The position numbers and the translations under genes are program-made. Positions 5,208 to 7,823 of a DNA stretch of 21,908 nt are shown in pieces. The stretch comes from a virus. Position 1 is the first letter of the stretch, and every line of letters begins with the position of its first letter. The DNA is taken from the IMG/VR virus record IMGVR_UViG_3300011114_000543, positions 1 to 21,908 of that record. The stretch is one strand, 5' to 3'. The notes under the pieces are model-generated. The model searched no databases, was not told where the DNA came from, and saw only the letters and a list, made by a program, of their open reading frames with translations.

Positions 5208-5439
5208 TGTCATTCTCCTCAATCAAACGCACGATTTTGGCAAAGTCAAAGCTGGATAACTCATCAGTGATGTCAACCCACTTGTCGTCAACAAACTTTT
5301 GTAATTCAAACTCGTATTTTTGGTAAAGCCCCTCTTTAGGGCTGTAGTCTGGGTCGTATGACCATTTGACCCTTAACTCCCATTCAGTCTCTGGTAACTG
5401 TAAGTCTCTGAGTTCATCTAAACACACATCGAATTTCAT
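5191..5439 (-). CDS. First gene of the leftward operon, acidic hypothetical protein
   Basis: An 82-residue acidic protein (ELRDLQLPETEWELRVKWSY, YEFELQKFVDDKWVDITDEL, ending EENDNDDIL). AAAGG precedes the ATG by six bases. As the first gene after the divergent control region it is probably among the earliest transcribed. Strong acidity and small size are common in phage host-takeover and DNA-mimic proteins, but there is no homology I recognise, so no function is given. Confidence 0.7.
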   Translation of the reverse strand: MKFDVCLDELRDLQLPETEWELRVKWSYDPDYSPKEGLYQKYEFELQKFVDDKWVDITDELSSFDFAKIVRLIEENDNDDIL

Positions 5440-5480
5440 ACACGCCTTTCAAGTTGATGAGTGGATACTGTACGACACTA

Positions 5481-5497
5481 TATTCTGTCTGACATTA
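5481..5497. promoter_or_regulatory. Candidate operator, copy 2 of a repeated 17-mer
   Basis: TATTCTGTCTGACATTA, the second copy of the motif at 3944-3960, lies about 40 bases upstream of the leftward gene starting at 5439. A TATAGT -10-like element for leftward transcription (5482-5477) abuts it, but no good -35 lies 16-18 bases further upstream, which would fit an activator-dependent promoter using the palindrome. Confidence 0.45.
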
Positions 5498-5510
5498 GGA
5501 CATACCCTTA

Positions 5511-5539
5511 TTGTCAAACAAAATTTAGCGTGATACTTT
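5511..5539 (+). promoter_or_regulatory. Sigma70-like promoter for the rightward regulator gene
   Basis: TTGTCA (5511-5516), a 17-base spacer and TACTTT (5534-5539) form a reasonable sigma70 promoter. A start about seven bases later falls on the A of ATG 5546, predicting a leaderless message. The same bases read leftward give TTGACA (5517-5512), a perfect -35, though the matching leftward -10 at 17 bases is poor. Confidence 0.45.
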
Positions 5540-5545
5540 ATGGGC

Positions 5546-5713
5546 ATGGCTAGACACAAATCGGAAATCACAGGAAGCCCACTCAAAATCGCCACAAGAG
5601 TTACTTTTGACCAATGGTTGGAGTTTCGCAAACTTGGCGGTTCTGTGTGGTTGAGAAACCTACTCAAGAATTCGATGGAGAATCGAAAGAGTCAACTAAA
5701 GGAGAAAACATGA
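5546..5713 (+). CDS. Small putative DNA-binding regulator (ribbon-helix-helix-like)
   Basis: A 55-residue protein: MARHKSEITGSPLKIATRVT then FDQWLEFRKLGGSVWLRNLL and a polar tail. A basic N-terminus, a beta-like strand (KIATRVT), a helix, a GG turn and a second helix follow the layout of Arc/MetJ-type ribbon-helix-helix proteins. Short phage proteins with xRLT...W..LGG..WLR are common. It lies in the divergent control region and its stop is coupled by ATGA to the next gene. There is no ribosome site; the promoter position suggests a leaderless message from ATG 5546 (an ATG at 5540 adds two residues). Fold and role as regulator are inferred. Confidence 0.6.
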   Translation: MARHKSEITGSPLKIATRVTFDQWLEFRKLGGSVWLRNLLKNSMENRKSQLKEKT

Positions 5714-5859
5714 AAAAAGTCATTATTGGCGCATACTTAGCACTTTCCAGCCTGACATTGTGGGCGGCTTGTTCAACCCATACTTACTATGCAAATGGTC
5801 GGTATGTGACTTGCCAAACCTGTTGTTATGGGAACAATTGCAACACCAACTGCTATTGA
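5710..5859 (+). CDS. Exported Cys-rich peptide
   Basis: A 49-residue protein with a signal peptide (MKKVIIGAYLALSSLTLWA) and a short mature part with six cysteines (residues 21, 35, 38, 39, 44, 48), including RYVTCQTCCYGNNCNTNCY. Cleavage after WA or just before Cys21 is likely; the site is close to a lipobox but has Trp at -3, so lipidation is doubtful. AGGAG stands six bases before ATG 5710. Disulphide-linked periplasmic peptides of this kind recur in phages with no known role. It sits in the early control region, not with lysis genes, which would suit a cell-envelope or superinfection function (inference). Confidence 0.68.
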   Translation: MKKVIIGAYLALSSLTLWAACSTHTYYANGRYVTCQTCCYGNNCNTNCY

Positions 5860-5867
5860 TGTATGAT
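5838..5867 (+). promoter_or_regulatory. Possible promoter for the structured RNA
   Basis: TTGCAA (5838-5843), an 18-base spacer and TATGAT (5862-5867) resemble a sigma70 promoter. Predicted transcription would begin near 5874, one base before the first hairpin of the structured RNA. The -35 lies inside the end of the Cys-rich peptide gene. Confidence 0.4.
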
Positions 5868-5874
5868 TAAACGA

Positions 5875-5981
5875 AATGCTTGGCGGCATTATCGTAGTAG
5901 GGTTACACATGAAGTCTGCTGGAACTACGCCAGTCCGCCAACATCCGAAAGGGTGAGACTTCAGGTGTAGCCCTTTTTTTT
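5875..5981 (+). ncRNA. Structured leader or small RNA with pseudoknot potential
   Basis: Pairings that can be read directly: hairpin 5875-5879/5886-5890 with loop UUGGCG; long stem 5900-5916/5957-5973 (17 positions, one mismatch, one G-U); hairpin CUGG/CCAG 5919-5922/5930-5933; hairpin CAUCC-GAAA-GGGUG 5942-5955 with a GNRA-type tetraloop. In addition UUGGCGG (5880-5886) is complementary to CCGCCAA (5935-5941), and CGUAGU (5893-5898) to ACUACG (5924-5929); these two are nested with each other and cross the long stem, giving a pseudoknot or an alternative fold. An eight-U tract follows. The strand order resembles HDV-like ribozymes, but the long first junction and lack of a junction C before the last strand argue against that. 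I do not recognise the class. Confidence 0.5.
5900..5981 (+). terminator. Intrinsic terminator with long arms, just before the replication initiator
   Basis: The stem GGGTTACACATGAAGTC / GACTTCAGGTGTAGCCC closes a 40-base interior and is followed directly by TTTTTTTT (5974-5981). The initiator ATG is only ten bases later and has no ribosome site or room for its own promoter, so transcription must read through or be antiterminated. Confidence 0.75.
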
Positions 5982-5990
5982 GGGCAAACT

Positions 5991-6713
5991 ATGCAAATCA
6001 AGAATTGGAAGAAGTTTCAGCACTTTAAAGACCGCAAACCACCTTGGGTAAAACTCTACAGGGATGTTTTAGACGATCTTGAGTGGTATGAATTAGACCC
6101 ACTTGCTAGCAAGGTGCTAGTAATGTGCTGGCTTATTGCTAGCGAGGATGATGGCAAATTGCCACCAGCAAAAACTCTTGCATTTAGGCTAAGGATGACA
6201 GAAAAGCAAACTATTGATTGCTTAAACAAGTTGTCTCACTGGCTGGAACAAGATGATATCAGCTTGATATCAGAACGATATCAAAGTGATAGTCTAGAGA
6301 CAGAGACAGAGACAGAGACAGAGACAGAGAAAGAGAAAGAGACAGAGGCAAAACAAAGAACAAAAGGCTCACGCCTTTCTGCTGATTGGGTTTTACCAAA
6401 AGAATGGGCAGATTGGGCAAGACAGGAAAGACCTGATTTGGATTTGCGGAGTGTGGGTGAGCAGTTTCGAGACTACTGGAGTGCAAAAGCTGGTTCAGGC
6501 GCAACAAAACTGGATTGGCAAGCCACTTGGAGGAATTGGGTTCGAAATCAGAAACAGTCTTACAAGCCTGTGGACATTGCAAGGGTAACAGTGCCATCAA
6601 GCTCACAGCGTGACCCTGCGCTTGTCAAGCTGGATGAGGATAGGCTGAAGACTGCACCACCAAACCCTGAAGTTTTAGCCAAAATCAGGGCAGTTTTAGG
6701 GAAAACAGCATGA
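5991..6713 (+). CDS. Replication initiator / helicase loader (O- and DnaT-like)
   Basis: A 240-residue protein with the usual two-domain plan. The N-terminal winged-helix-type domain (about 1-90: NWKKFQHFKDRKPPWVKLYR, LDPLASKVLVMCWLIASEDD) resembles phage O-type replication proteins. A low-complexity linker of repeated Glu-Thr (102-120) follows. The C-terminal domain (about 129-190: RLSADWVLPKEWADWARQER, GATKLDWQATWRNWVRN) resembles the DnaT-like domain of helicase loaders. It should bind the origin and load the replicative helicase. Iterons at 6255-6294 lie within the gene at the domain boundary, as in lambda O. The ATG has no ribosome site and follows a terminator by ten bases. Confidence 0.82.
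   Translation: MQIKNWKKFQHFKDRKPPWVKLYRDVLDDLEWYELDPLASKVLVMCWLIASEDDGKLPPAKTLAFRLRMTEKQTIDCLNKLSHWLEQDDISLISERYQSDSLETETETETETEKEKETEAKQRTKGSRLSADWVLPKEWADWARQERPDLDLRSVGEQFRDYWSAKAGSGATKLDWQATWRNWVRNQKQSYKPVDIARVTVPSSSQRDPALVKLDEDRLKTAPPNPEVLAKIRAVLGKTA
6255..6294. repeat. Iterons inside the initiator gene, candidate replication origin
   Basis: GATATCA occurs at 6255, 6266 and 6277, and a partial copy (GATA) at 6288, at a strict 11-base period, so all face the same side of the helix. The purine-rich hexamer tract starts three bases downstream. Lambda ori has the same placement, iterons between the two domain-coding halves of its initiator gene. Confidence 0.55.
6297..6350 (+). repeat. Hexamer repeat (GAGACA-type) encoding an ETETEKE linker
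   Basis: Nine tandem hexamers: five GAGACA, two GAGAAA, one GAGACA, one GAGGCA. The upper strand is almost free of pyrimidines apart from C. It encodes alternating Glu-Thr/Lys in the initiator's linker. The six-base unit preserves the frame, so changes in copy number alter linker length rather than switch the gene off. Confidence 0.9.
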
Positions 6714-6964
6714 TTCAAAAACAAAATGCTCTTTTTGAAAAACTTGAAGAATCCTTCAGAGATGAGTGGAAAAATATGCCTGAATATGTGCAAGAAGATT
6801 TAACACCTTACAGAACAATTAATGTCAGATTTAGAAATGCAGAAGATGTGGCAATTTTTGAACATTTGATGCAACAAAAAATTACTGAAAAACAAAAAAC
6901 AATTTGGTTTCCTTTTGCCGAGCCTAGAATTGCATCAATTTACAGGTATGTAGATGAATCCTGA
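6710..6964 (+). CDS. Conserved small partner of the glycosyltransferase
   Basis: An 84-residue protein with EWKNMPEYVQEDLTPYRTIN, VRFRNAEDVAIFEHLMQQKI and TEKQKTIWFPFAEPR. The pattern MPE.VQEDL.P.rtI.v.F...ED...F..L..Q.IT.KtksIW(F/Y)P is widespread in phages, often near a glycosyltransferase-like gene. It begins with an ATGA overlap with the initiator and ends inside the next gene, so the two are likely co-translated. Its function is unknown; a specificity or docking role for the enzyme next door is a context-based guess. Confidence 0.75.
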   Translation: MIQKQNALFEKLEESFRDEWKNMPEYVQEDLTPYRTINVRFRNAEDVAIFEHLMQQKITEKQKTIWFPFAEPRIASIYRYVDES

Positions 6965-7823
6965 TTATCCAATTTACATTGTTTCTAAAGGTCGCTGGGA
7001 ATCAAGGTTAACAAGCAAAGCATTGGAGCGCATCAATGTGCCATACAAAATTATTGTTGAAGAACAAGAAAAAGATTTGTATGCCAGCGTGATATCAGAA
7101 GAAAAAATTTTGGTCTTGCCAAAAAATTATTTGCAAGAATATGAAACTTGTGATGAGTTGGGCAACACCAAGGGCGTGGGGCCGGGGGCGGCTCGCAACT
7201 TTGCTTGGCAACATTCCATTGAAATGGGTGCAAAACGCCATTGGGTCATGGATGACAACATCGCATCATTTAACCGCCTTAACCGCAATTTAATGTGCAA
7301 AGTAAGTTCTGGAACAATTTTTAGGGCATCTGAAGATTTTGTAGACCGATATGAAAATGTGGCAATTGCTGGATTTAACTATGATTTCTTTGCCAAAGCC
7401 AAAGAACAAATACCACCATTTGTGTTGAATACTCGCATTTACTCATTGCTTTTAATTAAAAATGATTTGCCATTCAGGTGGCGTGGTAGATATAACGAAG
7501 ATACTGACCTATCATTGCGTGTCCTTAAAGCTGGTATGTGTACTGTTCAATTTAATGCGTTTTTGCAAGAGAAGGCTACAACACAAACATTAAAAGGTGG
7601 TAACACTGATGAGTTTTATGCTAAAGAAGGAACATTACCAAAATCACAAATGATTGCTGATTTGCACCCCGATGTGGCTAAAGTAGTTTGGAGATTTAAT
7701 CGTTGGCATCATCATGTGGATTACAGGGCGTTTAAAAAAAACAAGTTACAAAGAATTAAAAATATTTATATTCCTGATGTTGTTAACAATTTTGGTATGA
7801 AACTTGTGGAAATACAAAAATGA
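6954..7823 (+). CDS. TET/JBP-associated-type glycosyltransferase (TAGT)
   Basis: A 289-residue GT-A-like enzyme. It begins YPIYIVSKGRWESRLTSKAL and contains a metal-binding-type DDN (HWVMDDNIASFNRLNRN, D100-D101), EDFVDRYENVAIAGFNY (128-144), RWRGRYNEDTDLSLRVLKAG (175-194), where E182-D183 would be the acidic pair, and LKGGNTDEFY. These match phage proteins described as TET/JBP-associated glycosyltransferases, proposed to add sugar to hydroxymethylated bases in DNA. No TET/JBP dioxygenase, hydroxymethylase or thymidylate-synthase-like gene is seen in this window. The substrate (DNA base) is inferred from the family. The surrounding DNA is AT-rich compared with the head genes. Confidence 0.8.
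   Translation: MNPDYPIYIVSKGRWESRLTSKALERINVPYKIIVEEQEKDLYASVISEEKILVLPKNYLQEYETCDELGNTKGVGPGAARNFAWQHSIEMGAKRHWVMDDNIASFNRLNRNLMCKVSSGTIFRASEDFVDRYENVAIAGFNYDFFAKAKEQIPPFVLNTRIYSLLLIKNDLPFRWRGRYNEDTDLSLRVLKAGMCTVQFNAFLQEKATTQTLKGGNTDEFYAKEGTLPKSQMIADLHPDVAKVVWRFNRWHHHVDYRAFKKNKLQRIKNIYIPDVVNNFGMKLVEIQK

Follow-up and report, generated by a model that had tools for sequence, protein, structure and literature searches.

The DNA analyzed here (hereafter, the window) is the whole 21,908-nucleotide stretch of IMG/VR virus record IMGVR_UViG_3300011114_000543. Within it, an RNA of ~105 nucleotides (positions 5874-5981), which ends in an intrinsic-terminator signal, lies immediately 5' of a phage replication gene. 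The ATG of this gene is at position 5991, shortly 3' of the end of the U-tract at 5981. The features of the locus are as follows, with helices designated P0, P1, C, D, E and F.

5838-5867, plus strand: putative promoter-like site, TTGCAA-18-TATGAT, matching the consensus at nine of 12 positions.
5875-5890, plus strand: hairpin P0, with stem 5875-5879/5886-5890 and loop UUGGCG; the stem covaries.
5880-5886, plus strand: 5' strand of the first crossing pairing, P1, whose partner is 5935-5941; compensatory changes.
5893-5898, plus strand: 5' strand of the second crossing pairing, C, whose partner is 5924-5929; 97.8% of cells paired and double changes at seven of seven aligned pairs.
5900-5917, plus strand: 5' arm of D, the terminator and closing stem, whose partner is 5956-5973; double changes at 16 of 18 pairs.
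5918, plus strand: unpaired junction G, invariant in the alignments.
5919-5933, plus strand: hairpin E (CUGG/CCAG), with stem 5919-5922/5930-5933; double changes at three of four pairs once subfamily II is added.
5934, plus strand: unpaired junction U, invariant in the alignments.
5935-5941, plus strand: 3' strand of P1, CCGCCAA; compensatory changes.
5942-5955, plus strand: hairpin F (CAUCC-GAAA-GGGUG), with stem 5942-5946/5951-5955; double changes at four of five pairs.
5956-5973, plus strand: 3' arm of D, covarying with the 5' arm.
5974-5981, plus strand: U-tract of eight U residues (U8), evident in the sequence and kept in homologues.
5982-5984, plus strand: weak ribosome-binding GGG, which makes UUGG with the end of the U-tract.
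5991-6713, plus strand: O/DnaT-like replication or primosomal protein gene, the candidate gated gene, recognized by its homologues and by PHROGs matches (primosomal protein, E 1.8e-18; replication protein, E 8.5e-16).

The window's own genes upstream of the RNA encode a 57-amino-acid protein that matches no Pfam family and a small peptide that looks exported. The latter is cysteine-rich, is encoded at 5711-5859, just upstream of the RNA, and has homologues in 21 of 139 elements. Inside the replication gene, a six-base tandem repeat of AGAGAC (6296-6347) encodes ETETET; the repeat differs in sequence and length between close relatives, so the length of this protein linker is variable. Farther downstream (6954-7823) is a TET-associated glycosyltransferase gene (Pfam TAGT, E 6.7e-44), which suggests that the phage DNA is hypermodified.

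The strands of the RNA occur in the order P0 (with P1 in its loop), C, D, E, C', E', P1', F, F', D' and U8. The terminator stem D is thus crossed by both P1 and C, and C is enclosed by P1. The original prediction, which was made from the sequence of the window, had listed the terminator stem, the GAAA-capped hairpin, the CUGG/CCAG hairpin and both crossing pairings, nested with each other and crossing the terminator stem; all of these are present where they were placed. P0, whose loop is the 5' strand of P1, was absent from that list. D spans 18 positions with 17 pairs and a single A.G mismatch, and the loop of E contains the 3' strand of C (5924-5929). Two helix boundaries lack a linker: the 3' arm of F (to 5955) is followed directly by the 3' arm of D (from 5956), and in the alignment not a single nucleotide separates C from the outer end of D. 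Even when only pseudoknot-free structures are considered, the minimum-energy fold has a z score of -4.1, and none of 200 shuffled sequences folds as well.

To find homologues, we used the replication gene as a query, which gave 80 loci, about two dozen of which carry the RNA immediately 5' of the gene. A 15-base pattern and then a structural pattern recovered many more copies from IMG/VR phage contigs; all such counts are lower bounds. Together, the patterns and a covariance model identified more than 100 distinct homologues in these contigs, many of them from freshwater phages. The deduplicated set has at least 224 entries, some of which are overlapping pieces of one contig, and at least 102 distinct family I cores.

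The main covariation alignment comprises 57 non-redundant members and 45 pairs. Standard pairs occupy 96.1% of its pair cells, versus 77.6% in shuffles and 33-41% in slid controls. Double-change cells number 461, versus 136 in shuffles and 43-78 in slid controls, and the covariation score is 0.50, whereas shuffles reach 0.17 and slid controls no more than 0.09. Compensatory double changes occur at 31 of the 45 pairs. Helix C, for example, appears as GUAGU/ACUAC, CAGUA/UACUG and CAGGUA/UACCUG, among other variants.

This pair count cannot be used to judge P1 or E, because both were fixed by the search pattern. Therefore, these two helices were judged by searches in which either one strand or the entire helix was unconstrained. 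When only the 3' strand of P1 was fixed, in a form altered near its middle, 26 loci were found, of which 19 are this RNA and seven are unrelated sequence. The compensating 5' strand is present in all 19 of the RNA loci (UUGGAGG in 18, UUGGUGG in one). A second subfamily (subfamily II) was reached from a covariance-model match in one locus (L054) and then through E alone; here P1 is UGGGGAG/CUCCCCA and E is CACCG/CGGUG. P1 is therefore known in its reference form, UUGGCGG/CCGCCAA, and in the alternatives UUGGAGG/CCUCCAA, UUGGUGG/CCACCAA and UGGGGAG/CUCCCCA. With all subfamilies aligned, double changes are found at three of six pairs of P1 and three of four pairs of E, and both helices are 100% paired. 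A search for P1 variants at other positions returned chance matches only.

The original prediction had noted that its set of pairings needed covariation support; in the homologue alignments, both crossing pairings and all stems covary. Because both crossing helices covary, the nested double pseudoknot is a real RNA structure, which is our strongest result, with the closing stem as its intrinsic terminator, and we regard it as practically certain that this is a conserved double-pseudoknot RNA with a terminator stem. The stem and the U-tract are together under structural selection, as expected of an intrinsic terminator (double changes at 16 of 18 pairs of D; U8 in the window). A rival 35-codon reading frame at 5863-5970 is not conserved, as a frame of 30-40 codons is kept in just four of 27 elements with the homologous ATG. 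A hardly credible alternative is that the locus holds an ordinary terminator with chance complementarities, which would account for the strong hairpin and U-tract; however, a plain terminator needs neither two covarying crossing helices nor an invariant junction, and an unregulated stop at this position would silence the replication operon.

The RNA has a multi-way junction with a rigidly conserved core. G5918, U5934 and the pairs C5916-G5957, U5917-A5956 and C5942-G5955 are constant in every aligned member. That junction nucleotides are kept while the surrounding helices change sequence is the behavior expected of a recognition core, and this conservation pattern hints at a recognition site.

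The window and eight other carriers match none of the 4227 families of Rfam 15 at gathering score, and a relaxed scan of positions 5400-6100 gave only weak chance matches to eukaryotic or viral families. Plasmid sequences gave no match. In bacterial genome contigs searched with the 15-mer pattern, the first P1 strand was absent among the matches listed. Approximately 800 bacterial genomes from the order and phylum of a Rhodoferax metagenome-assembled genome gave chance matches only, a result that applies to those clades and to non-divergent copies. Among annotated phages, convincing matches are limited to the Manatee Spring records MW202462 and MW202544. In the former (MW202462.1; L465, 817-1059), a deposited hypothetical protein on the reverse strand spans the RNA, and is probably spurious.

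Two known RNA architectures bear comparison. HDV-like ribozymes share the strand order P1-P2-P3-P3'-P1'-P4-P4'-P2', which is likewise a nested double pseudoknot. However, our RNA has no J4/2 strand for a catalytic cytosine, and the 5' strand of P1, just before which such ribozymes cleave, is inside a hairpin loop; it also has the extra helix C and a terminator with a U-tract. There is no reason to expect cleavage, and for want of a J4/2 strand we rejected assignment to this class. In the RepZ-type control of IncI and IncB plasmids, a UUGGCG loop pairs with a distal CGCCAA upstream of the replication initiator gene; there the pseudoknot permits translation and is itself blocked by an antisense RNA. 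The RNA described here resembles that system in having a UUGGCG loop that pairs before a replication gene.

The position of the RNA relative to the next gene is regular. In 158 of the 160 copies that are followed by 150 bases or more of sequence, a reading frame of at least 50 codons starts just past the U-tract, and the two remaining copies have an ATG in that position as well. The distance from U-tract to start is nearly always 7-20 nucleotides, most commonly nine, with one copy at 30; six starts scored at zero or one nucleotide are probably assignment artifacts, and 157 starts are ATG. A start codon immediately past the U-tract leaves no room for another promoter, as the original prediction had proposed for the window. 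The arrangement in these 158 copies, a terminator followed by a gene at a short fixed distance with no promoter between, is that of a leader. In addition, each of 19 long viral records (19 of 19) carries exactly one copy.

The first downstream genes fall into 18 unrelated groups. The replication/primosomal group is the largest (55 of 117), and others include HNH nucleases, GIY-YIG/T5orf172 nucleases and ParB-like proteins. Where 2.5 kb of downstream sequence is available, 101 of 113 copies have a replication-group gene on the same strand within 0.8 kb. The leader is often followed first by a GIY-YIG, T5orf172 or HNH gene (L030, 5670-6008; L108, 885-1250; L365, 5228-5581; L360, 5322-5816; L345, 11095-11601), and in L030, L046 and L053 a GIY-YIG gene lies between the leader and the replication gene, as if homing nucleases had been inserted there. 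We consider it very likely that the RNA is a cis-acting leader of the replication operon and not a free-standing gene. That a short transcript instead serves replication itself, by opening or priming an origin beside the initiator gene, would fit with the adjoining replication genes; this is very unlikely, because certain copies stand before nuclease or ParB genes and lack a replication-group gene within 2.5 kb and because, in other relatives, the same place is occupied by an unrelated RNA, int-alpA.

The int-alpA RNA (RF02996) scores above the gathering threshold at two such loci and just below it at six. The loci preceding the same replication gene family are L013 (2054-2122), L025 (890-964), L029 (1181-1248), L036 (1232-1300), L039 (2464-2531), L040 (4298-4370), L045 (2527-2601) and L062 (5908-5977); in L040, our RNA and int-alpA occur in tandem. 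Like our RNA, int-alpA is directly before the replication gene, and in the int-alpA consensus a U-rich run comes after a closing stem; int-alpA differs in sequence and helices and has 71 positions. We rejected membership in int-alpA because the window and eight carriers score below its gathering threshold, whereas it is relatives lacking our RNA that match or nearly match. Although filed as an sRNA, int-alpA here too looks like a leader.

Upstream of the RNA, the commonest cluster of open reading frames is a P22-type Cro (52 of 139 elements), and in copies where Cro was located by motif, the cro stop codon is usually 12-28 nucleotides before the P1 loop. With Cro as the commonest upstream gene, the slot cro-RNA-replication gene is equivalent to that of lambda tR1. 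In lambda, tR1 lies between cro and the replication genes, and the early operon is controlled by terminator read-through, with antitermination brought about by protein N and the nut site. Our RNA resembles tR1 in its location between cro and the replication genes. In HK022, the put RNA modifies polymerase and is distinct from the terminator (PMC9378689).

The original prediction had left open whether the window encodes an attenuator or antitermination leader or an independent small RNA transcribed from a promoter at 5838-5867. The promoter is plausible, and a TATAAT-like box, enriched over shuffles, is present ~16-24 nucleotides before the P1 loop in most copies, in the same place as that of the window; in many relatives this box is near or overlaps the end of the upstream cro gene. 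A compact unit of promoter-like site, structured RNA and its own terminator, with a rigidly conserved core, would suit a small RNA with trans targets among host or phage RNAs or proteins, in which case the adjoining gene would be incidental. However, such an RNA has no need for a same-strand start codon almost always 7-20 nucleotides past its U-tract or for the same operon downstream. The fixed spacing to the start codon and the association with replication genes favor the attenuator or antitermination leader, and we judge the independent small RNA to be unlikely. The RNA and the gene could nevertheless both matter, given that terminated attenuator transcripts can act in trans.

A precedent for control within a terminator is the HMP-PP (thiS motif) riboswitch, whose aptamer lies within the terminator and forms a pseudoknot that disrupts this terminator close to the U-run (PMC6478431). 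Our RNA likewise has a conserved pseudoknotted domain in an intrinsic terminator, with a pseudoknot near the end adjoining the U-run, before the gene presumed to be regulated. The HMP-PP riboswitch differs in that it is much smaller, has one pseudoknot and is associated with bacterial thiamin genes, and the Rfam scans showed no sequence match. It nonetheless establishes that a pseudoknot inside a terminator can control that terminator.

Judging from sequence comparison, we think that the RNA is probably a cis-acting transcription attenuator of the phage replication operon in the cro-replication slot, with regulated attenuation as its main function. The covariation of all helices, the leader position, the replication operon downstream, Cro upstream, the single copy, the invariant junction and the HMP-PP precedent make this the most likely interpretation; the RNA would then work like a terminator-embedded riboswitch or lambda tR1. 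What is observed is the fold, its conservation and its position; actual termination, its regulation and the direction of that regulation are inferred.

In this proposed mechanism, polymerase that starts at the upstream promoter, or that reads through from genes farther upstream, would make the ~105-nucleotide RNA. P0 would fold first, followed by E with the second pseudoknot, C, then by P1 and F, and finally by D, which with the U-tract would form an intrinsic terminator. If that terminator is functional, the replication genes would be expressed only by read-through, since the U-tract and the start codon are too close together to accommodate a promoter. The sensor is likely to be the pseudoknotted domain, whose state would be set by a ligand, a protein or the rate of folding, and that state would determine whether the base of D zips up in time. 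Because C adjoins the outer end of D without a spare nucleotide, a stable C helix would strain the last pairs of D beside the U-tract. A model with rigid A-form helices is compatible with such strain, since C can form alongside D once just the outermost one or two D pairs are opened; it does not support strict mutual exclusion of C and D. The great stability of D as a duplex (-25.9 kcal/mol, versus -5.6 kcal/mol for C) means that termination in vitro might be unconditional, which counts against a regulated attenuator.

A translational layer may also exist. The original claim that the replication gene has no ribosome site was too strong, as a weak GG(G/A) follows the U-tract. UUGG occurs at the ribosome-binding site of family I leaders in 79% of cases, versus 9% for 650 other reading frames, an enrichment that is partly trivial because a run of T followed by GG makes UUGG. 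In subfamily II, the start codon at eight of 12 loci (L054, 5251-5375; L407; L409; L410; L419; L423; L427; L429) is immediately preceded by a hairpin that bears the P0 loop sequence UGGGGA, often with a stem that differs from that of P0 and between loci. This recurrence suggests recognition of both the P0 loop and the hairpin loop at the ribosome-binding site, either by the 3' strand of P1 or by a single shared binder.

The RNA could even be mainly a translational switch, in which the 3' strand of P1, as an anti-Shine-Dalgarno mimic, swaps the P0 loop for the ribosome-binding site of the read-through mRNA, or in which one binder recognizes both loops. The subfamily II hairpins, the enrichment of UUGG at family I ribosome-binding sites and the resemblance of P1 loops to Shine-Dalgarno sequences are consistent with this reading. 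Yet in most family I members the shared stretch is UUGG alone, four pairs that are trivially made, and conservation of the full terminator would be left unexplained. We consider a mainly translational role improbable, and retain attenuation of transcription as the preferred function.

This RNA family is absent from Rfam 15 and from the literature searched, including that on phage riboswitches and int-alpA; this RNA and the int-alpA RNAs seem to replace one another at the same position. If the gate is real, a structured RNA would guard the start of phage replication, where the known control is mainly antitermination by proteins. Because evolution has defined the fold almost pair by pair, its predictions are testable at once. 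More tentatively, the family may represent a new class of phage RNA sensor: a nested double pseudoknot within an intrinsic terminator, a swappable module across diverse phages that reads an intracellular signal to gate transcription of the replication operon, with an added translational step through a ribosome-binding-site hairpin that mimics its own first loop. If true, a sensor that reads the state of the host at this step would be relevant to the timing of phage replication.
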